This document shows positions 25,893 through 46,817 of a stretch of 64,000 nucleotides of DNA, piece after piece. Source of the stretch: Haloarcula salinisoli (GTDB lineage: Archaea; Halobacteriota; Halobacteria; Halobacteriales; Haloarculaceae); contig NZ_RKLQ01000001.1 of the NCBI RefSeq assembly GCF_019599405.1, forward strand, positions 930,001-994,000. Reading direction: 5' to 3'. The notes below the pieces were generated by a model, which was not told the DNA's origin, ran no database searches, and worked only from the letters and a program-made list of their open reading frames with translations. How positions within the stretch are numbered: the stretch's first letter is position 1; each line of letters begins with the position of its first letter. A program made the position numbers and the translations under genes.

Positions 25893-28800
25893 CTACGGCG
25901 CCGGCTCGGCTGCCGGTCGCGCGAGGCTACCTGCGGTATCGTTCGTGGTGGTCTCGTTCGTGGACGTATCGTCGGTCGACGAGCCGTCGGTCGAGCCGTC
26001 CGTTGTCGTGTTCGTGCTGGTGTCGTTGGTCTCGACCGTCTGGTTGCCTTCCGGGACTGTCAGTTCGACCGTCGTAGCCGACTCGTTCTCGCCGATGACC
26101 TGGCCTTCGGTGACCGTAGCGGTTCCGTTGAGCGGGTACGACGCCGTCGGTCCGACGGGGATACTGAACTCGTAGGGGCCCTGGGCTCGGACGCCCACGT
26201 CCGTGTACCCCTCGTCGGTGCCCCAGGCCTCGTAGCCGGTCGTCGAGTACGGGACGGTCATCTCGAAGCGGCCGTCCGCACCGACATCAACCCGCTGGGT
26301 GTAGGTGAAGCTCTCCCCGGTGACGTTGTTGCGCATCGGGACAGACGCCTCGACGGTGGTGTTTGCCGGGGCAGTGCCCTCGATGGTCCCTCCCTCCACG
26401 CGTTCGAATATCTTGGTCCACGCGGGGTTGGTGTGGTCCATGATGCCGGCGGCCTGGTCGGGCTGGCAGTACGTCTGGTTGCCGATGGGCATGGTGGTCT
26501 GGTTCGCCGTACAGTCACCGGTCGTGGACCGCTGGTTCGGAAGCTGCCCGAAGGCGGACTCGATGAGCTGGAACTGGTTGTGCGCCCCGGAGCTGTAGGC
26601 GCTTCGCTCGCTGGAGCCGACGTAGCGGTAGTGTTCCAGGGCCGAAACCCGCTCACCGGGCTGGGCACCGAACCCACCGATCTGTGAGGTCGCGTCCGAC
26701 TCGGTGTAGTTCCGGGCCGCCTCCATCGTCCTGAACCGCTTTACAGCGGGGCTCCCATCGGCGGGTGTCGCACGGACGGTCTGTCCGCTCCGGGTGGCCG
26801 CGGTGTCCCAGTCGACGACGTAGACGAACGGCTGGCTCGCGCTCTGTGGCTCCTTTGCGCTCCCGTGGTACTCGTAGAGCCGGACGACCATACTCTCGTA
26901 GTAGTCCTGCGTCCGATAGTTGAAGTACTGCTGACTCTGTCGGCTCCGAATCGTCCCGAAATAGTCGCTCCTGGAGACGTTCGATTTGTCGTAGAACCGG
27001 GGCGGTGCGAAGAACTTCCCCTGGCCGGGCCCGCCGTAGGTGTTTGCCATCTTCCAGTCGACGGCCACGTACCTGGTCTTCGCGTCGTCCTCGTCGGTCT
27101 CGTTGAGCACCGAGTTGGCCTCTGTCTCGGTGGGCGAGAGCAGGAAGTTCGCGGCCGTGGTCGCTCCCTGCTGGAACGGGTTCGCGTTCGGAATCCGCTC
27201 GCCCTGAACCGTAATGATGTGGCCGTAGTCCCACCACGACATCACGCCGTACTCGCCTTCGCCGTAGTCGTAGTCGCTGCGGTCGGCATAGGTGCCGTAG
27301 TACTCAAGCGTCCCGTTGCCACCGGTCCCGTAGGCACCTTCCTGTGGCGAGTTCGCCTGGAGCCAGTCCATGCTCTCTGTCCAGGCGGCCGGTTCCTGAC
27401 CGGGACCCGCCTGCTCGCCGACTTCCACCGCCGTCGGCGAGAAGAAGTACGCCGCACCCGGCGCGAACAGGAGCGGCCCGGTCAGAATCAACACGAGCGC
27501 GACGATAGTGATAACCTCGTAGGCCGCGACACCGTCGTCGAACGAGAAGTCGGTCCAGCGGACCACGTAATCGACGGCGACTGCGGAAAGTGCGGCCACG
27601 GGGAAGACGAGATAGACACCGAATCGGATCTGCGTGAACGATGCGGCCAGGATGAACGCGAACCAGACGACCATGAGGAACCGATCTGCGCTCGCGTCCC
27701 GGTCGAATATCTGGTTGAACAACACGAGCAGAGCGCCGATAATAGCAGCGAACAGCGCGAGTCCATGGTACTGGTAGAGGCGATCCGGATCATCGAGTGG
27801 CGTCGCCTCACCGACAGATGTCACGGTGGCAGCCGGGCTTTCGGTGAAGCCGATGACCCGCAGCACCTGGTTGACGAAGTAGCTGAACAGGTCCGGCGTC
27901 AGCACTGCAGTCAGTATCGTAATCGTTGCCAGAATGCCACCGACAGCGACCGGGTAGAGATTTCGGTCGTAATCGTTGGCCTCCACGAACCGAGCGAGCC
28001 AGGCCATAAACACACAGCCACCGGCGATAGCGGCCGCCAGCAGCACCTGCAAGAGCGTGTGGTCCACTGCCGATATGCTCAGCGACTGGAGGACCGCCAG
28101 CTGCAACACGGCAACCGTTCCCAGACTCACAGTGCCGACGATGGCTGCGTGTTCCGGGCTCTTTCCGCGGACGAATTCGATGGTCAGCCAGAGCAGGAAG
28201 AAGGTTCCGAGGATGCCCAGCAGGAGGACGGCCGGCGGCCACGTCCAGAGGTACAGCGAGATAGCGACGCCGGCGAGTATCGAGTAGCCGACCGTCGCCC
28301 TGAGCGCCGGGACGTCGCGGTCGAGGAACTGCTCGTACACTGGCTTGTCTCGTTCGCCGACCGATAGTGCGACCATCACGGCGAGTATAGAGGTCACCTG
28401 CAACAGTCCTTCGGCGACCTGGTGGTCGTAGAACCCGACGATACTCCGCTGGAGGAAGAGCCCGGCCGAGAGGGCGAGTATACCGGCTGCGGTCACACCG
28501 CCGATGCGACCGGCCAGCCGGCGACCCATGTAATAGGTGGGAATCGCGGCAAGGGTCCCCATCACAGCCGGCGCGAAGAGGGCGACCATCGCAACCGTAT
28601 GGGCGCTTGGGTCGCCCAGTCCGATGATGAGCGCAATGGTACCGAACACCTGGTCCATCAGCGTGCCGAACTGTCCCGACCGCGTGCCATACGGGAAGTA
28701 CGTCCACGGGTCGAACGGCATCGTGGCTGGCCAGTTCTCGACGACGTACATCGTCGAGCGGTAGTGATACCACGGGTCAGTCCCAGAAAAGAGGACCTCA

Positions 28801-28955
28801 CCGTCGACGATATACTCCGAGTAGTTCTGGGCTCGATTCCACAACATGAACCCGAGTACGAGGAGGAGGGCTGGTACGTGATACCATGTTTTGACCCTGT
28901 CCAACGTGGACTCAGGTTCGGGGTTTTCGGCGGAAGTCCCCCGTGAGTGACTCAT
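25893..28955 (-). CDS. aglB: Oligosaccharyltransferase AglB (STT3 family)
   Basis: A 1020-residue archaeal oligosaccharyltransferase that moves the lipid-linked glycan onto Asn in N-X-S/T sequons. The N-terminal half is multi-helical, with the external-loop motif FSGTDPWYHYR. The catalytic WWDYG motif is near residue 572 (GVMSWWDYGHI). The soluble C-terminal domain ends in a Thr/Asn-rich tail containing four sequons of its own. A TATA-like AGGCTTATGC (28980-28989) lies about 30 nt upstream. It is divergent from the GT2 gene at 29063 and marks the left edge of the glycan locus. Confidence 0.97.
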   Translation of the reverse strand: MSHSRGTSAENPEPESTLDRVKTWYHVPALLLVLGFMLWNRAQNYSEYIVDGEVLFSGTDPWYHYRSTMYVVENWPATMPFDPWTYFPYGTRSGQFGTLMDQVFGTIALIIGLGDPSAHTVAMVALFAPAVMGTLAAIPTYYMGRRLAGRIGGVTAAGILALSAGLFLQRSIVGFYDHQVAEGLLQVTSILAVMVALSVGERDKPVYEQFLDRDVPALRATVGYSILAGVAISLYLWTWPPAVLLLGILGTFFLLWLTIEFVRGKSPEHAAIVGTVSLGTVAVLQLAVLQSLSISAVDHTLLQVLLAAAIAGGCVFMAWLARFVEANDYDRNLYPVAVGGILATITILTAVLTPDLFSYFVNQVLRVIGFTESPAATVTSVGEATPLDDPDRLYQYHGLALFAAIIGALLVLFNQIFDRDASADRFLMVVWFAFILAASFTQIRFGVYLVFPVAALSAVAVDYVVRWTDFSFDDGVAAYEVITIVALVLILTGPLLFAPGAAYFFSPTAVEVGEQAGPGQEPAAWTESMDWLQANSPQEGAYGTGGNGTLEYYGTYADRSDYDYGEGEYGVMSWWDYGHIITVQGERIPNANPFQQGATTAANFLLSPTETEANSVLNETDEDDAKTRYVAVDWKMANTYGGPGQGKFFAPPRFYDKSNVSRSDYFGTIRSRQSQQYFNYRTQDYYESMVVRLYEYHGSAKEPQSASQPFVYVVDWDTAATRSGQTVRATPADGSPAVKRFRTMEAARNYTESDATSQIGGFGAQPGERVSALEHYRYVGSSERSAYSSGAHNQFQLIESAFGQLPNQRSTTGDCTANQTTMPIGNQTYCQPDQAAGIMDHTNPAWTKIFERVEGGTIEGTAPANTTVEASVPMRNNVTGESFTYTQRVDVGADGRFEMTVPYSTTGYEAWGTDEGYTDVGVRAQGPYEFSIPVGPTASYPLNGTATVTEGQVIGENESATTVELTVPEGNQTVETNDTSTNTTTDGSTDGSSTDDTSTNETTTNDTAGSLARPAAEPAP

Positions 28956-35496: not shown

Positions 35497-36882
35497 TCAC
35501 TGTTTGTATCCCAGGTCTTCGAGTCGCTGTTTCACGGCCTCGCTTTCGTCGACCTCCGGAAGCGTGATATCGGTCGCATCGGCTTCGTCGAGATACGTCT
35601 GCATTTGCGTTTTGTGCTCGTCGACGACGGCCGGATGGTGGTCGCTTACGTCCTCCAGCTCGTCGGGATCGTTCATCAGGTCATACAGCTCGATGACACC
35701 ATCGGCGGTTCGCCAGAAGCACTTCCACCGGTCGGTTCGGCTGGCGAGAGTTTTCCCCCCTCGGCCCGTACAGAGCGCCATCTCCTCACCCCCGACAGGA
35801 GCGTCGAGATCGGTCCCCATAGTGGTAGAACTGATACATGGAGCCCGGCTCACCCCCTGCATGCGCTCGGGCGTCTCGATGTCGACCAGATCGAACATCG
35901 TCGGTCCGAGATCTATCAGTGACACCTGCTCGTCGACACGTTCGTTTGTCAGCCCTGGCGCACGGATGATGAGGGGCACTCGAAGGAGTTCGTCGTAGAG
36001 ATACGGGTGATGGCCAAAGCGGTCGTGTTCGCCGAAGGCTTCGCCGTGGTCGGCGGTGACGACGATTGCCGTGTCGTCGAGGATGCCACGCGTTTCGAGG
36101 TCGTCGAGCAGTCGTTCGATGGTCTCGTCGACCAGGCGAATCTCGCCGTCGTACAATGAGAGCAGATCCGCGACATCGTCGTCGGTCAGCTCCTCGGGAT
36201 TTTCCTGCATCATACCGTTGAGGTTGGCTTTGCGACGGGTCGACAGCGTCTCCAGGCCCTGCTTTTCGAGATGTTCGTCCGGCGGGGTGAAGGGGTAGTG
36301 AACGTCCATGTAGTGGAGCCACATGAAAAACGGCTGGTCGCCGTCCCACTCCTCGTCGAGCCAGCGGGTCGCCCGGTCGGTGATCTCCGGGGCACGGACG
36401 TACGCGGAGGTATCGGCCGTCATCTGGAACATGTGGTACCCTCGCCGGAGCAGTTTGTAGAGCAGGCCGTCGGGATCGAGACGTTCGTCGACGAAGTTCT
36501 TGAGCGTCCAGGCGTCGTCGTCGTCCTCGCCGCCGTCGTTGAACGTATCGAAGCCGTGGTTGTAGTTTTTTTCGGGACCGAGATGCGGGTTCGAGTGGTA
36601 CCCGACGGTGGTCCAGCCGGCGTCACGGAACGTCTCCGAGAGGAAGGGGCGCTGTTCGTCGAGATATCGGTAGCCACCGTACATGAGCGGGTGCGTTCCG
36701 GTGAGGATCGTGGGGAAACTCGATGGCGTGTTGGGACCGTTCGCGACCGCTTGATCGAACGAAACGAACTCCTCGGCCAGTCGGTTGAGCGTCGGTGCCC
36801 GGGTGGCACTGTCCGGCATCCCGAGTGTGCGGTCGTACCGGAGACTGTCCACAGTAATCAGAATGACGTTACGAACTCCCAT
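35497..36882 (-). CDS. Sulfatase-like alkaline-phosphatase-superfamily enzyme, no formylglycine cysteine
   Basis: A 461-residue enzyme. The N-terminal metal Asp is in ILITVDSLRYDR (Asp12), and the second metal site is VVTADHGEAFGEHDRFGHH. Aligning the LTG landmark with sulfatases places Thr52 (NTPSSFPTILTG) where the formylglycine Cys should be, and Phe56 where the conserved Arg should be. So it is probably not a true sulfatase; Thr-nucleophile relatives are phospho-group transferases or phosphodiesterases. No signal peptide or helix. It ends KQRLEDLGYKQ and is divergent from its paralogue at 36983. Confidence 0.85.
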   Translation of the reverse strand: MGVRNVILITVDSLRYDRTLGMPDSATRAPTLNRLAEEFVSFDQAVANGPNTPSSFPTILTGTHPLMYGGYRYLDEQRPFLSETFRDAGWTTVGYHSNPHLGPEKNYNHGFDTFNDGGEDDDDAWTLKNFVDERLDPDGLLYKLLRRGYHMFQMTADTSAYVRAPEITDRATRWLDEEWDGDQPFFMWLHYMDVHYPFTPPDEHLEKQGLETLSTRRKANLNGMMQENPEELTDDDVADLLSLYDGEIRLVDETIERLLDDLETRGILDDTAIVVTADHGEAFGEHDRFGHHPYLYDELLRVPLIIRAPGLTNERVDEQVSLIDLGPTMFDLVDIETPERMQGVSRAPCISSTTMGTDLDAPVGGEEMALCTGRGGKTLASRTDRWKCFWRTADGVIELYDLMNDPDELEDVSDHHPAVVDEHKTQMQTYLDEADATDITLPEVDESEAVKQRLEDLGYKQ

Positions 36883-36982: not shown

Positions 36983-38446
36983 ATGTCTCGACCGCACGTC
37001 TTTCTGATTACTGCGGACGGTCTCCGGTACGACAGACTTTCTCACTCCGGCAACGACGTAGAGACCACCCCGACACTCGATAAATTGGCCAACTCGGGTG
37101 CCGTCTGTCACAACACCATCGCCACCGGGACCGGTACCCGGACGAGTTTTCCGGGCATCCTCACCTCGTCGTACCCGCTGATGTACGGCGGGTTCTCCCA
37201 GATGACACGCCACCGTCTCCCGATCAGTGAGCTGTTCCAGGAACGGGGCTACGTCACACTCGGTGTCAACACGAACGCACAGTTGCACACGCGGTTCGGC
37301 TGGGACCGCGGGTACGATGTCTACTACGACAGCGAGCAAACGACGGTCAACAATCCCGTCGGCGCGTTCACGCAACCGGACGACGACACTGACGACGAGC
37401 AGTCGTTCATCGATGCAAACCTGGAGGAGCTGAAATCCGAGGTGTACGAGCGCCTCGACCACGACGGGGCGCTGTTCCGGACGTTAGAAACTGCCTACCG
37501 GCAGATAGAGGGTCGAACACCGCCATACGACCGGGCTGTCGAAACGGTCGACCGCACGCTCTCGTTCATCGATCAGGCACCCGACGACGAACCGCTGTTC
37601 GTCTGGATTCACTTCATGGAGACACACTCGCCGTACTTCCCGCCCGGTGACTACCGGACGAAGTATCTCAGCGAGCGGGTCTCGGACGGGCGGATCTGGC
37701 GGCTCAACGACCGGCTCCACACCGAACCCGACAGCCTGACCGAGGCGGAGGTCTCCATCATCTCACAGCTGTACAACGGTTCGCTCCGGTATCTCGACGA
37801 CCAGATTGGCCGGCTGTTCGACGGCCTGCGAGAGCGAGACCTGTGGGACGACAGCGCCGTCGCCTTCAGTGCCGACCACGGCGAGCAGTTCCGCGAACAC
37901 GGGGAGCTGACCCACTGTGCCAAGCCCTATGAGGAGGGCGTCCATGTTCCCCTGTTGTTCAGGATTCCCGACGAGCACCTGACCGACATCGACGGTGTGA
38001 CCTCGACCATCGACATCGCCCCGACACTGCTCGATATCGCCTTCGACGACCCCCGCCCGTCCGAAAAGTACCACGGCCAGTCGCTAGTGCCGGTGCTCGG
38101 GGGCGAGGCCGAGATCGACGGCGACCGTGCGGTGTTCAGCCAGGACGCCTCCGAGGCGGGGCGCGAGACGAACCTCGCCCACCGGATCACGGGCTGTCGA
38201 ACCGCCGACTGGAAGTACATAACGTCCGTCCAGGACGACTTCGAGACGTTACTCTTTGCCCTCCAGTCTGACCCCGGTGAACAGGAGAACGTGGTTGCGG
38301 ACCACCCGGACGTTCGAGACGCGTTCGCCGACCGGGTCGAACGCCACTACCAGCAGTCGGCCTACACCGACTACGAGATCGCCGACGCGGTCGACACCGG
38401 CCACGTCAGCGAGCGCCTGCAGGCGCTGGGCTATCTCGACGAGTGA
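36983..38446 (+). CDS. Second sulfatase-like alkaline-phosphatase-superfamily enzyme
   Basis: 487 residues from the ATG at 36983 (MSRPHVFLITADGLRYDR). The frame extends upstream to 36785 but there it overlaps the divergent paralogue. Layout is the same as 35497-36882: metal Asp12, then Thr52 in GTRTSFPGILTS at the nucleophile position, Phe56 in place of Arg, and FSADHGEQFREHGELTH. It ends SERLQALGYLDE. The two paralogues are head to head with about 100 nt between starts, so they may share a promoter region. Confidence 0.85.
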   Translation: MSRPHVFLITADGLRYDRLSHSGNDVETTPTLDKLANSGAVCHNTIATGTGTRTSFPGILTSSYPLMYGGFSQMTRHRLPISELFQERGYVTLGVNTNAQLHTRFGWDRGYDVYYDSEQTTVNNPVGAFTQPDDDTDDEQSFIDANLEELKSEVYERLDHDGALFRTLETAYRQIEGRTPPYDRAVETVDRTLSFIDQAPDDEPLFVWIHFMETHSPYFPPGDYRTKYLSERVSDGRIWRLNDRLHTEPDSLTEAEVSIISQLYNGSLRYLDDQIGRLFDGLRERDLWDDSAVAFSADHGEQFREHGELTHCAKPYEEGVHVPLLFRIPDEHLTDIDGVTSTIDIAPTLLDIAFDDPRPSEKYHGQSLVPVLGGEAEIDGDRAVFSQDASEAGRETNLAHRITGCRTADWKYITSVQDDFETLLFALQSDPGEQENVVADHPDVRDAFADRVERHYQQSAYTDYEIADAVDTGHVSERLQALGYLDE

Positions 38447-39181
38447 TCAGAGGTCGTGTTCGTCCGCGAAGGCAGGATAGAACGCACGGACGTCGTCGGG
38501 CGTGCCGAGGACGTGGACGCGGTCAGTCGGCACCGAGACGAGATCGATATCGTCACCCTGGTCGACTAGCCAGTTGTACAGCGGTGCGATGTACGTCTCG
38601 CCGTACTCGGCTTTCACGTCCCCGGCGGCAGCCTCGTAAGCCGCCCTGAACCGACCCCAGGATTCGAACTGGTAGAAGCCGATGGTCGCGGCGTCGGAGA
38701 CGCGCTCTTTCTCGGTGACACGGGTGACGGAGCCGTCGGCGTCGGTCTCGACGAAACTCCAGCGCTCGCCCTCGGGTGAAAAGACGGGAATCGAGTGACC
38801 CAGTCCTACGTCGTCGGCCCGGAGTTCACCCGGCTCGATGTAGGTGTCGATGTTGAAGATGGCCATCGTCTCCTCGTCGGGAACTAGGTCGTCGGCGTAC
38901 ATCGCCGTCGAGGCCTGGCCGTCTGTTACCTCCGGGACCGACACCGTCTCGTACTCCTCTATCCCGACACGTTCACAGTGGGTGGCGATAACGTCGTCGA
39001 CGTCGTGGTCGGCGCGGGTGACGAACACGAACGAGTCGTCCGTGAAATCCGACAGTCCGTCGAGTGCGTACTCGAACATCGTCCGTCCGTCGATCTCGAT
39101 GAGGAACTTCGGCCCCTCGATGCCTGCCTCTTTGAACCGGCTGCCACGTCCCGCCATCGTGATGACGACCGTTCTGCTCAT
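38447..39181 (-). CDS. Sugar/small-molecule nucleotidyltransferase
   Basis: 244 residues from the ATG at 39181; 17 upstream codons of the frame are Arg-rich and antisense. The nucleotidyltransferase signature MAGRGSRF (9-16) and PKFLIEIDGRTM (24-35) are clear, and FNIDTYIE supplies the catalytic Asp. Size and lack of a hexapeptide repeat fit single-domain enzymes of capsule loci that make CDP- or other NDP-linked groups. It overlaps the upstream fusion gene by 4 nt (ATGA) and is the last of four coupled genes. Confidence 0.87.
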   Translation of the reverse strand: MSRTVVITMAGRGSRFKEAGIEGPKFLIEIDGRTMFEYALDGLSDFTDDSFVFVTRADHDVDDVIATHCERVGIEEYETVSVPEVTDGQASTAMYADDLVPDEETMAIFNIDTYIEPGELRADDVGLGHSIPVFSPEGERWSFVETDADGSVTRVTEKERVSDAATIGFYQFESWGRFRAAYEAAAGDVKAEYGETYIAPLYNWLVDQGDDIDLVSVPTDRVHVLGTPDDVRAFYPAFADEHDL

Positions 39182-40845
39182 AGGTCCCCTCGCGCGGCGG
39201 CGAACTTTTCGATTCCGGTTGCGAGCATACACTGCTGGCGCTGGGTACTGTCGCTGTGGAGCGGCACCATACTCAGATACAGGAGCGATTCGAGCAGTTT
39301 CACGTCCTGCACATCCTCGGGATACTCCTGTGCGAGCTGGTCGTCGAACAGTTCCTCCCGGCGGTCGTGAACTGGGTCCGTGTGCGTCTCGAAGGAGACC
39401 TGCTCCTCGGAGACGGACACGTCGAACAGGTCGTTGATGATGAACTCGTAGTGGCCCGAGACACTGTGGCGAAGCTTCGCCAGATCGTACCGGTAGTCCC
39501 CGTAGATCGTGTGGGGACCGAACGCCCCGCGAGGGTCGATCAGTTTCGGGATGTTGTTTCGCACGTCGAAGAGCACGTTCGGGAAACAGAGATCTCCGTG
39601 GATCACGCTCAGTCTATCCCGTTCGAGGAGGCAACTCTCCGTGAGTGTGTCCCGGAGTATGTCGAGGATTGCCGGCACCGTCGGGTAGGTCTCGCCGTTG
39701 ACGGTGATCTCGCCTGGCTCGAAGAAGGGGTCCAGACCGGCCATCCCCTCGGCCCGGCGGAGTCGGTTGACGGTCTTCTCGTAGTACATCTCTTCGAGCG
39801 TTTCGGTTATCTCGGCGGGGTCGGTCTCCAGCTGGAACTCCTGGAACCGCTCCAGCAGGGTAAACAGTGAACTGTAGATGTTGCTCCAGAGGTGGAGGCC
39901 GTGTGAGCCGTAGATGTAGATGTCGCTCAGCGTCGGGTATCCGATGTACTCCATGGTAATCGACGGGTCGACGTAGGAGTCCGAGTAGTCGTAGATCTGC
40001 GGGATGTACGGGCGGAGCTGTTTGGGGAGTTTCTTGAACCAGGAGATCTCGTTACGGAGGGTATCGCTGTCTTCGCTGGATTTCGTTATCGTGTTCGTGG
40101 CGACGTCGATGCTGTTGAACTCTCGAACGTTCAGCGAGTCACGCTTGTTCTGGTAGTAGGTATCGAGGTGGCCGATGTCGACCCAGCGGTCGGCTTCGAG
40201 CAACTGGGACGGCTGATTCGACAGGTACGACTGGAGCGCGACGTAGAAGGGGTCCAGCTTGCCGTCGTCCCCGCCACAGGCTGCCTTCAGCAGCGTCCAG
40301 TAATCCGCCGGGGCAGTCAGCTTGAACTGTCCGGTGAACACGTTCCGTGGGCTGTCGAACACCCGGCTGAACTTCTCGGTGATCGAGTCGATTTCGCCAT
40401 CGTCCGTCTTCGAGAAGGAAGTCCACCGGTAGGCATGCGAGACCTCCGAGCAAGAGACCGTGCTCGCGTCGACCCCGTAGCCGACCGGCGAGACGATGGT
40501 GTCCGCGAAATTAATGTACAGATCTGCGTCATCGAGCGACCGCCTGTCGGCGATCTGGCTGAGCGAGTCTGCCACCGTCTCGCCGAGAGAGGTTGTCCCC
40601 GAGACGTCGAGCAGCGTCCACTCCCGGTCCAGCCGGTCCAGCATCGACGCGAGCTTCTCGATTTGCTCGTCACCGGCCACGTACAGATCCATGTCGTGTT
40701 CCTCGTACTCCGCGGCGATATGTTCGATTGCCGGCTTCCCGTCGAAGGGAATCATCGCGGTCGCGATCGGCCCGAGATCGAACTTCAGCTCGTCGGGGAC
40801 CAGCACGGCCGAGGGCACCAGTAGGATATCCTCATTCGTCGCCAT
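39178..40845 (-). CDS. Nucleotidyltransferase-like / APH-type kinase fusion
   Basis: 555 residues in two parts. Residues 1-250 resemble the nucleotidyltransferase fold (LVPSAVLVPDEL, MIPFDGKPAIEHI) but lack the GxGxR signature, so this half may be inactive. Residues about 260-520 form a phosphotransferase of the APH/choline-kinase type: VIHGDLCFPNVLFD (HxDxxxxN, about 416-428) and LIDPRG (about 436), the metal Asp. Fusions of this kind occur in bacterial capsule loci. A role in phosphorylating a glycan substituent is inference. It overlaps the next upstream gene by 14 nt. Confidence 0.8.
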   Translation of the reverse strand: MATNEDILLVPSAVLVPDELKFDLGPIATAMIPFDGKPAIEHIAAEYEEHDMDLYVAGDEQIEKLASMLDRLDREWTLLDVSGTTSLGETVADSLSQIADRRSLDDADLYINFADTIVSPVGYGVDASTVSCSEVSHAYRWTSFSKTDDGEIDSITEKFSRVFDSPRNVFTGQFKLTAPADYWTLLKAACGGDDGKLDPFYVALQSYLSNQPSQLLEADRWVDIGHLDTYYQNKRDSLNVREFNSIDVATNTITKSSEDSDTLRNEISWFKKLPKQLRPYIPQIYDYSDSYVDPSITMEYIGYPTLSDIYIYGSHGLHLWSNIYSSLFTLLERFQEFQLETDPAEITETLEEMYYEKTVNRLRRAEGMAGLDPFFEPGEITVNGETYPTVPAILDILRDTLTESCLLERDRLSVIHGDLCFPNVLFDVRNNIPKLIDPRGAFGPHTIYGDYRYDLAKLRHSVSGHYEFIINDLFDVSVSEEQVSFETHTDPVHDRREELFDDQLAQEYPEDVQDVKLLESLLYLSMVPLHSDSTQRQQCMLATGIEKFAAARGDL

Positions 40846-42019
40846 ACTCGTACCACCCTGGACCGAAATCCGCCGGGAAATCCGCCGGTTCTACCGTGTC
40901 ACGAAAGAGGTCGCCCATACTCTCCTCTGGCCACGCCGCATCACGATAGAGGTTTCGACTGCGGTGGTCACCCGTGAACCGCTCGTCCGTGAACGGTACC
41001 ACGGCGAACAGGAGCCGGTGACCCTGGTGGTAGATCTCCTCCCCGACGTTTTTCGCCAGTTGCGTGAGTTTCTCCTCGAATGGCTTGTCGAGAAAGTCGG
41101 CTTTGACCGGATAGCGACGGCCAAAGGTTACAGGCCGGTAGCCGTAACACCGAACCCGAAGGTTCTGTTTCAACTCTTTCCATCGCAGCCGGCGGAACAG
41201 TTTCGATTCCTGCATCTCGTGGTTCTCGCGCAATCTGGTGACGTACTCCCCCCCGGTGATGTCGAACCGACGGAGGTAGTTCGCCTGGACACTCCTGCCG
41301 TAGTCCTCGGGGAAGTCTTCGGCCGCCACGTGGACGAATCCGTACTCCGGGACGAACGTACTCGGTCGCACGCCCGCGTACGGCTGGGTCTTCTCCCTGT
41401 CGTCCCACCAGAGATCGGTCGTCTTGTCCGAATAGTAGAAGAAGTTCGACCGGCCGACGTTCCCCAGCAGGAGCAACATCAGCATATTGTGGATCGCGGT
41501 ATGGGGAAGCAGATCCCGGGGGTCGAACTCGAAGAAGGAACGCTCCGCAAAACCGTCCGACTCGAACAAGAAAAACTGGTCCATGACGCTCCCGAGCCAG
41601 AACTTGGGTCGCCGGTAGGACGATCCCATCCCCCGGACAGCGGCGTGTTTCTCCGAGTCGTCGAGCCGGTCAACCAGACCGAGCAGCTTCGACTCATCAA
41701 GTGGCCAGGCGTCGGCGTGGAGATGCATCACGTACTCACAGCCAGCGTCCATCGCGCCGCGACAGCTCCGTTGCATCGAGTCCAGGATGCGGCTGTTGAG
41801 GTTGATATCGGCCCGCAATCCTGACATCTCGGGTGTGTACTCGATCTCTGCGCCCTGAACAAAATGATCCACGTCGATGGGTTCGATCCGACTCGCCGCG
41901 TCCGGATGGTTGCTACAGACGGAGATGTAGTACTCCTCTTCGAAGTTGTGGCGCAGAATATCGACGAGTACCCCGAGGTCGTCGAACTTGTCGTACAGCG
42001 AGACGGCGATTCCGATCAT
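40832..42019 (-). CDS. Glycosyltransferase-like protein of unknown family
   Basis: 395 residues. The N-terminus (MIGIAVSLYDKFDDLGVLVD) and the YVMHLHADAWPLDESKL segment (Asp103 in an HADA motif) look like a GT-A nucleotide-binding core with a DxD-like site. The C-terminal 200 residues (TTDLWWDDREKTQ, FVHVAAEDFPEDYGR) match nothing I recognise. No signal peptide or helices. It is tied by overlaps to the HAD gene (4 nt) and the fusion gene (14 nt), so it probably transfers the group those enzymes activate. Confidence 0.6.
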   Translation of the reverse strand: MIGIAVSLYDKFDDLGVLVDILRHNFEEEYYISVCSNHPDAASRIEPIDVDHFVQGAEIEYTPEMSGLRADINLNSRILDSMQRSCRGAMDAGCEYVMHLHADAWPLDESKLLGLVDRLDDSEKHAAVRGMGSSYRRPKFWLGSVMDQFFLFESDGFAERSFFEFDPRDLLPHTAIHNMLMLLLLGNVGRSNFFYYSDKTTDLWWDDREKTQPYAGVRPSTFVPEYGFVHVAAEDFPEDYGRSVQANYLRRFDITGGEYVTRLRENHEMQESKLFRRLRWKELKQNLRVRCYGYRPVTFGRRYPVKADFLDKPFEEKLTQLAKNVGEEIYHQGHRLLFAVVPFTDERFTGDHRSRNLYRDAAWPEESMGDLFRDTVEPADFPADFGPGWYEYGDE

Positions 42020-42420
42020 GAGTCGAGGGCCCTGGCGTCGGTTTCCAGCAGTGCCAGGATCTCCTCCCGGGAGTTGTTCATGAACTCACCGGGACGAATC
42101 GCCTTGTCGTCGACGTAGAACCCGTCGTGGCCACACCACGGCTTACCGTAGTGGATCTCGTCGTACGGAACGTCGTGTTCCTCAAGCCAGTCGAGCAAAA
42201 TCGGGGCGGTCTCGGCGTTTATCTTTCCGGTGCGACCCTCGTGGGTGTTCATGTTCCGCGCCGTGTAGAGAACGATATAAAAACCCTCCTCATGGTATGA
42301 GCGCAGGCGCGAGAGCACCGCCTCCTTGGGTTCGCGCTCGGAGTAGGGGGTGTCGTCGTCCTTCTCGACCAGCACCCCGTCGATATCGAAAACGACTCTA
42401 TCGTGTTTCTCGACGGTCAT
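42016..42420 (-). CDS. HAD-superfamily phosphatase of capsule-locus type
   Basis: A 134-residue HAD protein. The nucleophile motif is VVFDIDGVLVE (Asp12, Asp14), motif II is LYTARNMNTHEGR, and the late acidic motif is FYVDDKAIRP. The compact capless form with YGKPWCGHDGFYVDDKA is typical of capsule clusters, where it stands beside nucleotidyltransferases. It is the first gene of the four-gene operon, with a TATA-like tract (42441-42450) about 25 nt upstream. Confidence 0.85.
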   Translation of the reverse strand: MTVEKHDRVVFDIDGVLVEKDDDTPYSEREPKEAVLSRLRSYHEEGFYIVLYTARNMNTHEGRTGKINAETAPILLDWLEEHDVPYDEIHYGKPWCGHDGFYVDDKAIRPGEFMNNSREEILALLETDARALDS

Positions 42421-42440
42421 CGTCTGGACCGAGAAGAGGA

Positions 42441-42450
42441 TTATAAATAA
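42441..42450 (-). promoter_or_regulatory. TATA-like box of the HAD-GT-kinase-nucleotidyltransferase operon
   Basis: The minus strand reads TTATTTATAA, centred 25 nt before the HAD ATG at 42420, so the four coupled genes probably have their own promoter. Confidence 0.55.
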
Positions 42451-44501: not shown

Positions 44502-45306
44502 TCGTCGTTACGTCAGACAGCGTAATTGGTTCGTCCTCTTCGGCGAGCGTTGCACAGAGGTCACGGAACGCGTCGAATCCGTCTGCGAGGCGCATACAGG
44601 CCGGATGAGCCAACACAGTTGCAGTCTCACCGGTCGCCCGGTGCTCCGAGACGTAGTCTACTACCCACTCACACCAGTCCTCGGGCTGGTGGCTCTCAGT
44701 TCCGAACGGTCCGGAAAAGTCTTCGACCGCGGTCGTTCCGGGTTTCCGGAACGCGTGGTAGACGTGTTCGTGGTCCGGTGGCGTGTTTATCGGCACGACC
44801 GTCAGGTCGTCCTCCCGTCGGACCGTTCCGTCGGGTTCGACTGCATCCGAGAAGTGCGTGAATCCGTGCGCGGCGAGTAGGCCAGCCGTATGCTCGTCGT
44901 GGCGGTACGCATGGTCTCGCCACGACGTTATCCGCGCGCCGACCGCTTCGAAGGCGGCAACGGTCTTCCGTATTTCGTAGGACTGGAACGGTCGCGGCCC
45001 GTTCCACGAGCCCACCCGTCCACCAGAGGCCTTGCCAAGTGCGCGCCACACGCTGTGTACCGGTGTGGTGAACGCCCAGTAGTTGTGGCCACCGAGTTCG
45101 ACGTTAGCCATCGATACCAGCCGCTCCACCAGCGCCGGTTCCTCGGCGATACACCTGCCAGTACAGAACAGCGTCACCGGCACGCCGTACTCGGCGGCGA
45201 TTTCGGCGTATTCCACGGCCGCCTCGACTTCTGTCCCGTCCAGGTACGGCTGGTCACGGGTCTCCATCGACATGTGGTGGACGTCGCCGGTAATCGCGAC
45301 TGTCAT
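44494..45306 (-). CDS. Polysaccharide deacetylase-family protein, 2
   Basis: A 270-residue NodB-like protein. Motif 1 is AITGDVHHMSME (Asp8 region), motif 2 is NVELGGHNYWAF, and a later SWRDHAYRHDEH supplies more His. VLFCTGRC-like and GVPVTLFCTGRC segments match the family strand pattern. Distantly related to the deacetylase at 42569. It is translationally coupled on both sides (4 nt overlap with the phosphodiesterase gene upstream, 8 nt with the GT4 downstream). Substrate unknown. Confidence 0.8.
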   Translation of the reverse strand: MTVAITGDVHHMSMETRDQPYLDGTEVEAAVEYAEIAAEYGVPVTLFCTGRCIAEEPALVERLVSMANVELGGHNYWAFTTPVHSVWRALGKASGGRVGSWNGPRPFQSYEIRKTVAAFEAVGARITSWRDHAYRHDEHTAGLLAAHGFTHFSDAVEPDGTVRREDDLTVVPINTPPDHEHVYHAFRKPGTTAVEDFSGPFGTESHQPEDWCEWVVDYVSEHRATGETATVLAHPACMRLADGFDAFRDLCATLAEEDEPITLSDVTTND

Positions 45307-46817
45307 TCGAGGTAGCCGAGGTCTTCGAGTCGGTCCTGGACGTCCTCGCGCGCTGCGTCGGTTGCGGCCTCGAAGGGGAGCGGGTCACAGGTCGCCACAT
45401 CCCTATCGTCGAATAGCGGGAGTGGCTCGCCGTCCATATCCGTGGGGACGGAACAATCGACGCTGTGTAGCACGGTCGGTGCCACGTCGGTAATCGAAAT
45501 CGGGCCGTCGAGGTCGGTCGCGTCGACGTCCGGCCCGTCGGCGAGGAAGAGTCCAGTCCGGACGTTCTCGGCTTCCCAGTGACCCACATCGCTGAAGATG
45601 GGGTTCGAGCCGATTGCACCGCTGGCGTGGACGCCCGGCCGCTGGTCGAACACTATCTCCGGCGCATCCTCGACGTACGGGCCCTCGTAGGCCTCCTCAC
45701 GGCGCATCACCTGCCGGGCGATAGGCTCACCAGCATCGTTTTCCAGTGCTGCGAGGTCGTCTATCAATCGCTTTACTGTGTCGGGGTCGTCGTCGATGAC
45801 GTAGACGAGCCCCTGACCGCTCGCAACGGCCGACGATTGCTCCCAGTCGACCTTCTCCAGTTTCTGCTCGCGTTTGAATCCCTCCTCGTCTTCGGGAATC
45901 TGTTCTGTGAGACGGTCTGGTGCTAGCCTGGTTACGAGGCTATGGATGCCGAGGTTGTGAGCGAGCTTCGAGAGGCGCTTCTTGTTGACTCCGTACCTGT
46001 CGAAAACGTCCGCTGTCTCAGTCTTCGTAACGAGATACCCCTCTGACTCGAGCCAGGAGTTGACGTAGAACACTGTGTCCACGTCTTTGCATCCGTGGTC
46101 CGACATCAACAACAGGGTGGCGTCAGGGTGGTCGTCCCGAATCGCTCCAATCTGCTCGTCAATGACCTCCCAGGCACGGCGGGTCGGCTCGCCGCGCCAG
46201 AAGAAGTGCTGGAGGACGTTGATATAGAAGACGGTGCAGTGGGCTACGTCGACGTCTTCCGCTTCGAGTTGCTCTCGGAACGTCTCCAGCCGCTGCTCGA
46301 TCAGTTCGACCAGTCCGTCAGCCTCTTCGCGATCTTCCTTCCCAGTGACTGGCGATTCTGGGTGCAGACGGTACCCGTCTGTGTCGAGCCGCTCGCCCAG
46401 TTCTGGCGGGTGGGTGTACGCATCCTGCTCACTCCCGGGACCACCGGCAATCATGTACTCGTCAACCTCGAACGGCGGGTACGTCATCGGGAGGTTCATG
46501 ATACCGGCCGTCTGACCGTTCTCGTTCAGGTAGTCCCAGTAGTTCGCGCTCTTGAACGAACGCGAATCTGGTGTCGTGAGCGTCCGTCGGTCGGTGTCGA
46601 TAGTTTCCCACCAGAATACGCCGAGTTTTCCCGGATTCTTCCCAGTCGAGTAACACCGCCAGTTCGGACAGGTAACCGGCGGGAAACAGCTGTGCATGTC
46701 GGTCCATACCCCCTCTTCTTTGAGGGCCTGGATGTTCGGAAGTCTCCCGTCGTCCAACCACGGTTCGAGCAACGCCCAGTTGGCCCCGTCAAGTCCAAGT
46801 ACGATTGTCTCAGTCAT
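45303..46817 (-). CDS. NPP-type alkaline-phosphatase-family enzyme
   Basis: 504 residues of the type I phosphodiesterase/nucleotide pyrophosphatase branch. The first metal Asp is in VLGLDGANWALL (Asp10), the likely nucleophile is Thr49 in PPVTCPNWRCYSTG, and the second metal site is LLMSDHGCKDVD. The NPGKLGVFWWE segment matches phosphodiesterases common in haloarchaeal glycan loci. No signal peptide. It ends QDRLEDLGYLE, almost the same C-terminus as the three sulfatase-like proteins. It overlaps both neighbours by 4 nt. Confidence 0.85.
   Translation of the reverse strand: MTETIVLGLDGANWALLEPWLDDGRLPNIQALKEEGVWTDMHSCFPPVTCPNWRCYSTGKNPGKLGVFWWETIDTDRRTLTTPDSRSFKSANYWDYLNENGQTAGIMNLPMTYPPFEVDEYMIAGGPGSEQDAYTHPPELGERLDTDGYRLHPESPVTGKEDREEADGLVELIEQRLETFREQLEAEDVDVAHCTVFYINVLQHFFWRGEPTRRAWEVIDEQIGAIRDDHPDATLLLMSDHGCKDVDTVFYVNSWLESEGYLVTKTETADVFDRYGVNKKRLSKLAHNLGIHSLVTRLAPDRLTEQIPEDEEGFKREQKLEKVDWEQSSAVASGQGLVYVIDDDPDTVKRLIDDLAALENDAGEPIARQVMRREEAYEGPYVEDAPEIVFDQRPGVHASGAIGSNPIFSDVGHWEAENVRTGLFLADGPDVDATDLDGPISITDVAPTVLHSVDCSVPTDMDGEPLPLFDDRDVATCDPLPFEAATDAAREDVQDRLEDLGYLE

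Follow-up and report, generated by a model that had tools for sequence, protein, structure and literature searches.

The closest described relatives of the genes considered here are cassettes of bacterial capsule, O-antigen and lipopolysaccharide (LPS)-core loci, which combine a HAD phosphatase (EcbF/BcbF), a fusion of a nucleotidyltransferase-fold domain with an APH-like kinase, and a BcbE-like nucleotidyltransferase. A homologous fusion and a HAD protein belong to phage DNA-modification cassettes, represented by ORF052_053c of RB69, TH1_060 of Thanatos and the Minot-type genes and presumed to supply an arabinose donor; the link to RB69 and Thanatos is taken from published homology, not from alignment in this work. 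The nucleoside diphosphate (NDP)-heptose pathway of GmhA, HddA, GmhB and HddC offers the same chemistry as that proposed below, with an anomeric kinase, a HAD phosphatase and a nucleotidyltransferase. In a 64,000-nucleotide stretch of Haloarcula salinisoli (contig NZ_RKLQ01000001.1, positions 930,001 to 994,000 of the forward strand; hereafter the window), a four-gene operon encodes, as judged by sequence comparison, a cassette of the bacterial kind. There is good support for nucleotide activation that serves a surface glycan, and the general logic of a kinase, a phosphatase and a nucleotidyltransferase acting together is likely. Taken whole, the reading that we lean towards is that the operon activates a sugar with a nucleotide and passes it on to a surface glycan, the best candidate being D-fructofuranose derived from fructose 6-phosphate, with fructose itself a tentative choice.

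All four open reading frames (ORFs) lie on the minus strand and overlap successively by 4, 14 and 4 nucleotides; this arrangement and a TATA box of the operon's own, both reported in the initial annotation, were confirmed. The TATA element occurs once in the window, against 0.03 copies expected by chance, and its spacing to the first ATG suits a leaderless haloarchaeal transcript. The operon is delimited by a 148-nucleotide gap upstream and a convergent gene of the alkaline-phosphatase (AlkP) superfamily downstream. Its features, by position in the window, are:

42440..42447, minus strand: TATA element TTTATAAT, operon promoter, 20-27 nucleotides 5' of the first ATG
42016..42420, minus strand: HAD phosphatase related to EcbF/BcbF, 134 amino acids, matching TIGR01689 and 1xpj
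40832..42019, minus strand: GT-A-fold glycosyltransferase as judged from a structure model, 395 amino acids, proposed sugar transferase
39178..40845, minus strand: fusion of a nucleotidyltransferase-fold domain and an APH-like kinase, 555 amino acids
40126..40845, minus strand: approximately residues 1-240 of the fusion (N-terminal), with a nucleotidyltransferase fold that lacks the GxGxR...K signature
39181..40125, minus strand: approximately residues 241-555 of the fusion (C-terminal), an APH-like sugar kinase with intact motifs
38447..39181, minus strand: separate nucleotidyltransferase, 244 amino acids from its ATG, probable NDP-sugar-forming enzyme, matching 4evw

The HAD protein aligned with positions 3-123 of the 126 in TIGR01689 (E 1.3e-43) at 147.9 bits, below the family cut-off of 162 bits, which the HAD protein of an Escherichia coli K locus clears at 202.6 bits. 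By this comparison it is a close relative of EcbF/BcbF and not a formal member of the family. It also matched the solved structure 1xpj (E 1e-40), and the catalytic residues of the DxD, K and DD motifs (D12, D14, K93, D104 and D105) are invariant in 85 sequences and intact in this small, cap-less phosphatase. The presence of such an enzyme argues for removal of a pre-existing sugar phosphate, comparable to the GmhB step of the heptose pathway, and not for addition of a phospho-substituent.

The C-terminal part of the fusion matched the APH family PF01636 with an E-value of 4e-4, which falls under the Pfam cut-off, and gave no match to the choline-kinase family PF01633 at E up to 1 with HMMER default filters. 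Its kinase motifs (HGDxxxxN, DPRG and YDxAK) are intact, and H416, G417, D418, N423, D437, R439, Y453 and K457 are invariant in 86 of 86 fusions. A structure search with the model of the fusion (predicted local distance difference test (pLDDT) score 93.9) covered the N-terminal domain and assigned it to the sugar-nucleotidyltransferase fold (VIA Z about 23), with LicC and PntC among the matches (Z about 22), roughly level with GlmU and UDP-glucose pyrophosphorylase. This domain has lost the G-rich loop for nucleoside triphosphate (NTP) and the Lys residue, and has kept D115 and WxDxGH; the loop motif is unconserved across 85 aligned fusions, and the single regular-expression match to it among the fusions (locus L033) comes from a protein whose called start is possibly too early. 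The fusion of phage Planchet carries a canonical NTP loop and that of phage Minot has partly kept it, and no separate nucleotidyltransferase gene of the operon's type was seen near either. In E. coli MLI104K2, with O92-type wzm/wzt genes, the fusion is annotated in pieces (L104:8372-9911), reflecting a broken gene or sequencing errors.

The separate nucleotidyltransferase matched the solved structure 4evw (E 2.5e-27); its G-rich loop and catalytic Arg and Lys residues are present, and G11, R15, K25 and D112 are invariant in 76 of 76 such proteins, so that it is the probable NDP-sugar-forming enzyme of the operon. An intact separate nucleotidyltransferase beside a loop-less fused one suggests a division of labour, for which the fuller loop in phage fusions that have no separate nucleotidyltransferase nearby also counts. 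Most simply, the working enzymes would be the kinase, the HAD phosphatase and the separate nucleotidyltransferase, the fused domain perhaps being a degenerate module for substrate binding or assembly; that the fused domain (loop lost, WxDxGH kept) and the separate enzyme (loop kept, no WxDxG) share an active site is only an idea. In cyanophage S-SKS1 (L012:3517-4941), a nucleotidyltransferase of the cassette type has a complete RibB domain (TIGR00506, above cut-off) as its fusion partner.

The product of the second gene had no match in Pfam, NCBIfam or PHROG. Its AlphaFold (AF2) model (pLDDT 75, with a low-confidence C-terminus) matched GT-A enzymes by both Foldseek and VIA (best Z 13.4), and an H-x-H-x-D-x-W motif, invariant in eight homologues, stands where the classical DxD would. 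The model thus presents the protein as a GT-A glycosyltransferase with a putative metal site, and as the proposed transferase of the activated sugar. Comparison by hhalign with WavE and with the acyltransferase protein of the E. coli K locus found no relation. This gene lies inside the operon in the window and occurs with the cassette in all five haloarchaeal carrier genomes described below, which sets them apart from the bacterial cassette. In Halobacterium sp. TGN-42-S1 (G023), a truncated remnant of the gene stands beside the cassette (L013:10031-10201, L108) and a full copy lies 29 kb off. For all four proteins, the domain calls of the initial annotation hold: a TIGR01689-like HAD protein, a glycosyltransferase (of GT-A fold), a nucleotidyltransferase-like/APH fusion and a nucleotidyltransferase (4evw). 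A comparison of structures and active sites bore out the folds and the residues of the kinase, the HAD phosphatase and the separate nucleotidyltransferase, but not a functional site in the fused nucleotidyltransferase domain, whose loop is lost.

In the proposed pathway, the kinase half of the fusion would take a sugar phosphate of central metabolism and phosphorylate its anomeric hydroxyl, after which the HAD phosphatase would take off the original terminal phosphate. The separate nucleotidyltransferase would then couple the anomeric phosphate that is left with an NTP, and the GT-A protein would move the sugar onto a surface glycan, possibly the AglB N-glycan. The reaction order, the nucleotide, the identity of the sugar and the acceptor are those that we infer; alternatively, the phosphatase may act first and deliver free fructose to the kinase. 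The phage versions would use D-arabinose 5-phosphate. Unlike the NDP-heptose pathway, in which HddA is a GHMP kinase, the operon has a kinase that is APH-like and fused, no isomerase is recognised, and the HAD protein is of another subfamily. In its most specific form, the proposal is that the cassette makes NDP-beta-D-fructofuranose, by phosphorylation of fructose 6-phosphate at C2 to a fructose-2,6-bisphosphate-type intermediate and removal of the 6-phosphate by the HAD enzyme, and that haloarchaea fructosylate a surface glycan; this we hold to be possible, though rather doubtful.

The genes for the HAD protein and the fusion have identical distributions among 292 haloarchaeal genomes, each being present in 5, which represent five genera. 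The GT-A gene is present in these and in one further genome; the nucleotidyltransferase adjoins the cassette in each of the five carriers. The cassette is rare, being present in a minority of haloarchaeal species. Because the carriers share the descent of the cassette, this co-occurrence counts as linkage and joint transfer, not as five independent events. The gene order in the window is HAD-glycosyltransferase-fusion-nucleotidyltransferase, and that in the other carriers is nucleotidyltransferase-fusion-HAD, with the full glycosyltransferase gene next to it in one, at about 2 kb in another and at 10-29 kb in two. A sixth, weak match to the fusion, in haloarchaeon G041, proved to be a different protein of 604 amino acids (L017:7376-9623), also a nucleotidyltransferase-APH-like fusion, with a canonical-looking N-terminus; its neighbours, a KdsC-like HAD protein and an epimerase-like gene, may make up a parallel cassette with it.

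Scanning the genome collection with the HAD alignment returned 298 stretches that encode relatives. Among the best 80 loci, which were examined, the fusion and the nucleotidyltransferase accompany the HAD protein in 75, mostly in the order HAD-fusion-nucleotidyltransferase. These loci span several phyla and, where examined, are polysaccharide loci (capsule, O-antigen or LPS core). The conserved three-gene linkage and the co-occurrence indicate that the gene set is not a product of chance. The window shares with the bacterial cassette the same three proteins, their adjacency and their conserved residues, and its order fits the bacterial one once the glycosyltransferase gene is set aside; the fusions of the haloarchaeal clade differ from the bacterial ones in sequence, at about 22-35% identity. 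In the tree, the haloarchaeal fusions form one clade (Shimodaira-Hasegawa-like approximate likelihood ratio test (SH-aLRT) 99), adjoining the fusion of a marine archaeon metagenome-assembled genome (MAG; support 92). In this MAG (L072:10369-12753), fusion and nucleotidyltransferase are encoded by one ORF of 794 amino acids, with the HAD gene before it and a GT-A homologue downstream. Three Stappiaceae loci (L056, L062 and L068) carry the HAD gene in the opposite orientation to the nucleotidyltransferase and fusion genes, and their fusions sit on a very long branch.

The operon is surrounded by glycosyltransferase, flippase and polysaccharide deacetylase-like genes, and by one further feature of note:

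25893..28955, minus strand: AglB oligosaccharyltransferase (PF02516, PF22627, PF18079), 10 kb from the operon

The view of the initial annotation that kinase and nucleotidyltransferase together serve nucleotide activation of a glycan component is supported. The N-glycan is possibly the target of the operon product, the sole pointer being the position near AglB; in three of the five haloarchaeal carriers, 10, about 21 and about 53 kb separate AglB from the cassette.

The identity of the sugar was approached through the bacterial relatives. In Vibrio mimicus, WaaA and WavE flank the cassette within the LPS-core cluster, and the HAD protein and nucleotidyltransferase of this cassette are near-identical to 1xpj and 4evw, respectively, which we take to be Vibrio cholerae proteins. 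The LPS core of V. cholerae contains fructose, and among E. coli capsules K4 is also fructose-containing. In E. coli O15:H18 of sequence type 69 (ST69), the K locus comprises the cassette together with galactosyltransferase-like, TagF-like phosphopolymerase and acyltransferase genes. The commonest K type of the ST69 lineage is K52 (PMC13171598), and the K52 capsule is described as fructose-containing in the title of Hofmann 1985, as cited in PMC5566550. The ST69 K locus is probably K52. Fructose is presumably the residue without a housekeeping donor both in K52 and in the Vibrio core, and elimination therefore favours fructofuranose, or a furanose related to it, as the probable sugar. A Pfam scan of genes surrounding the operon matched no isomerase, and none was recognised by eye beside the cassette in the haloarchaeal and inspected bacterial loci, which suits a substrate drawn directly from central metabolism. 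The phage relatives, too, count for sugar activation: the RB69 fusion has a presumed role in uridine diphosphate (UDP)-arabinose synthesis (PMC12838424), and the fusion and HAD genes of phage Minot accompany an isomerase gene, as described below. D-arabinofuranose 5-phosphate and D-fructofuranose 6-phosphate share their ring configuration, so one enzyme family could serve both.

Several points weigh against fructose on an archaeal surface glycan. AglB is remote from the cassette in two of the five carrier genomes. The haloarchaeal fusions stand apart from those of Vibrio and E. coli in the tree, at about 25-28% identity, so that their substrate could differ. The K52 assignment is based on lineage and gene content, not on serology. 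Campylobacter jejuni HS:1 adds fructofuranose by means of a single protein, HS1.08, and has no such cassette (PMC7901785), which means that fructose does not require one. The RibB fusion of S-SKS1 hints at a substrate derived from ribulose 5-phosphate. The Thanatos paper could assign no function to the fusion of that phage. In the open-access literature searched, we found no biochemical test of a bacterial or archaeal cassette, and nothing usable on EcbF/BcbF, TIGR01689, fructose linked to guanosine, uridine or cytidine diphosphate (GDP-, UDP- or CDP-fructose), or Pasteurella capsule composition.

Some of these points bear on the alternative that the logic is the same and the activated sugar another one (arabinofuranose, xylulose, heptose or a furanose of some other kind), fructose being confined to the Vibrio and K52 branches; we consider this somewhat unlikely, yet a serious competitor. 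The separate clade of the haloarchaeal and MAG fusions speaks for it, as does the isomerase that accompanies the phage relatives: consecutive genes of phage Minot encode a KdsD-like arabinose-5-phosphate isomerase (TIGR00393, E 6e-31), the fusion, the HAD protein and a thymidylate-synthase homologue. The phage cassette differs from the operon in this isomerase, in the loop kept by the Planchet fusion and partly by that of Minot, and in its target, which is phage DNA cytosine; a search of viral contigs for relatives of the fusion found none. D-xylulose and L-sorbose also occur alongside fructose in C. jejuni capsules (PMC10919079). Against this alternative, the haloarchaeal loci have no recognisable isomerase, and a pentose or heptose phosphate would have to come from elsewhere in the cell.

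It is very unlikely that choline, ethanolamine, an amide or some other non-sugar is what the kinase and nucleotidyltransferase activate, to serve in phospho-linked decoration, as the initial annotation had proposed by analogy with LicA/LicC and with capsule phosphoramidate. The pairing of a kinase with a nucleotidyltransferase of broadly similar folds is indeed that of LicA/LicC, and LicC and PntC are among the structural matches of the N-terminal domain. However, the fusion does not qualify as a LicC-LicA-like bifunctional enzyme, because its nucleotidyltransferase half has lost the NTP loop; its kinase half lacks a choline-kinase family match at E up to 1, and the HAD protein, obligate in the cassette, would be needless in LicA/LicC chemistry. 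The relatives are the EcbF/BcbF sugar-polymer cassette and the phage fusion, not choline genes, and the annotated neighbourhoods hold capsule, O-antigen and LPS-core sugar genes or phage sugar modification. The phosphoramidate analogy fares no better, since the four proteins have no match to a large glutamine kinase or an amidotransferase-type hydrolase in Pfam or NCBIfam, and no ATP-grasp family in Pfam; the O-methyl phosphoramidate (MeOPN) genes encode proteins of 170, 253, 200 and 779 amino acids (PMC7901785). AlkP-superfamily proteins lie close by, and the initial annotation took them as a pointer to phospho-decoration, but they are not specific to cassette loci. Three are encoded in the window (35497-36882, 36986-38446 and 45303-46817), flanking the operon region; the first two have no obvious sulfatase C/S-x-P-x-R motif and carry a Thr near that position. 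Similar proteins are encoded close to the cassette at L014 and L016, and one locus that lacks the cassette, L017, has them too.

Attachment of the nucleotide to the terminal phosphate, giving an NDP-alditol or NDP-6-sugar for phosphodiester transfer with the HAD protein and kinase serving another branch, is highly improbable. CDP-glycerol and CDP-6-glucitol are precedents, and some cassette loci carry TagF-like phosphopolymerases; on the other side, the Phaeobacter locus has a TagD of its own, TagF-like genes were recognised neither in the haloarchaeal loci nor in the Vibrio core, and the kinase and HAD protein would be superfluous. A regulatory or salvage role, with the fusion scavenging a free sugar, the HAD protein acting as a housekeeping repair phosphatase and nothing fed to a glycan, is scarcely credible: free-sugar kinases occur among APH-like enzymes and no direct assay exists, but the linkage of the three genes holds in different phyla, the examined loci being polysaccharide loci, and in haloarchaea the cassette co-occurs exactly with the GT-A protein.

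The cassette occurs in about 75 of the loci examined, in several phyla; in the literature searched it has names, and its chemistry is unassigned. Were the activated sugar fructose or a related furanose, the cassette would offer a set of genes by which the making of an unusual sugar donor could be tested directly. NDP-fructose, should it be the product, would be the fructose donor so far missing for the V. cholerae LPS core and for some fructose-containing capsules. The proposed pathway, if true, would mean that a single enzymatic logic connects archaeal surface glycans with the arabinosylation of phage DNA and with bacterial polysaccharides. To our knowledge, neither fructose nor a related furanose is known in haloarchaeal N-glycans, and the pathway would predict a new sugar in haloarchaeal glycans, in a minority of species.

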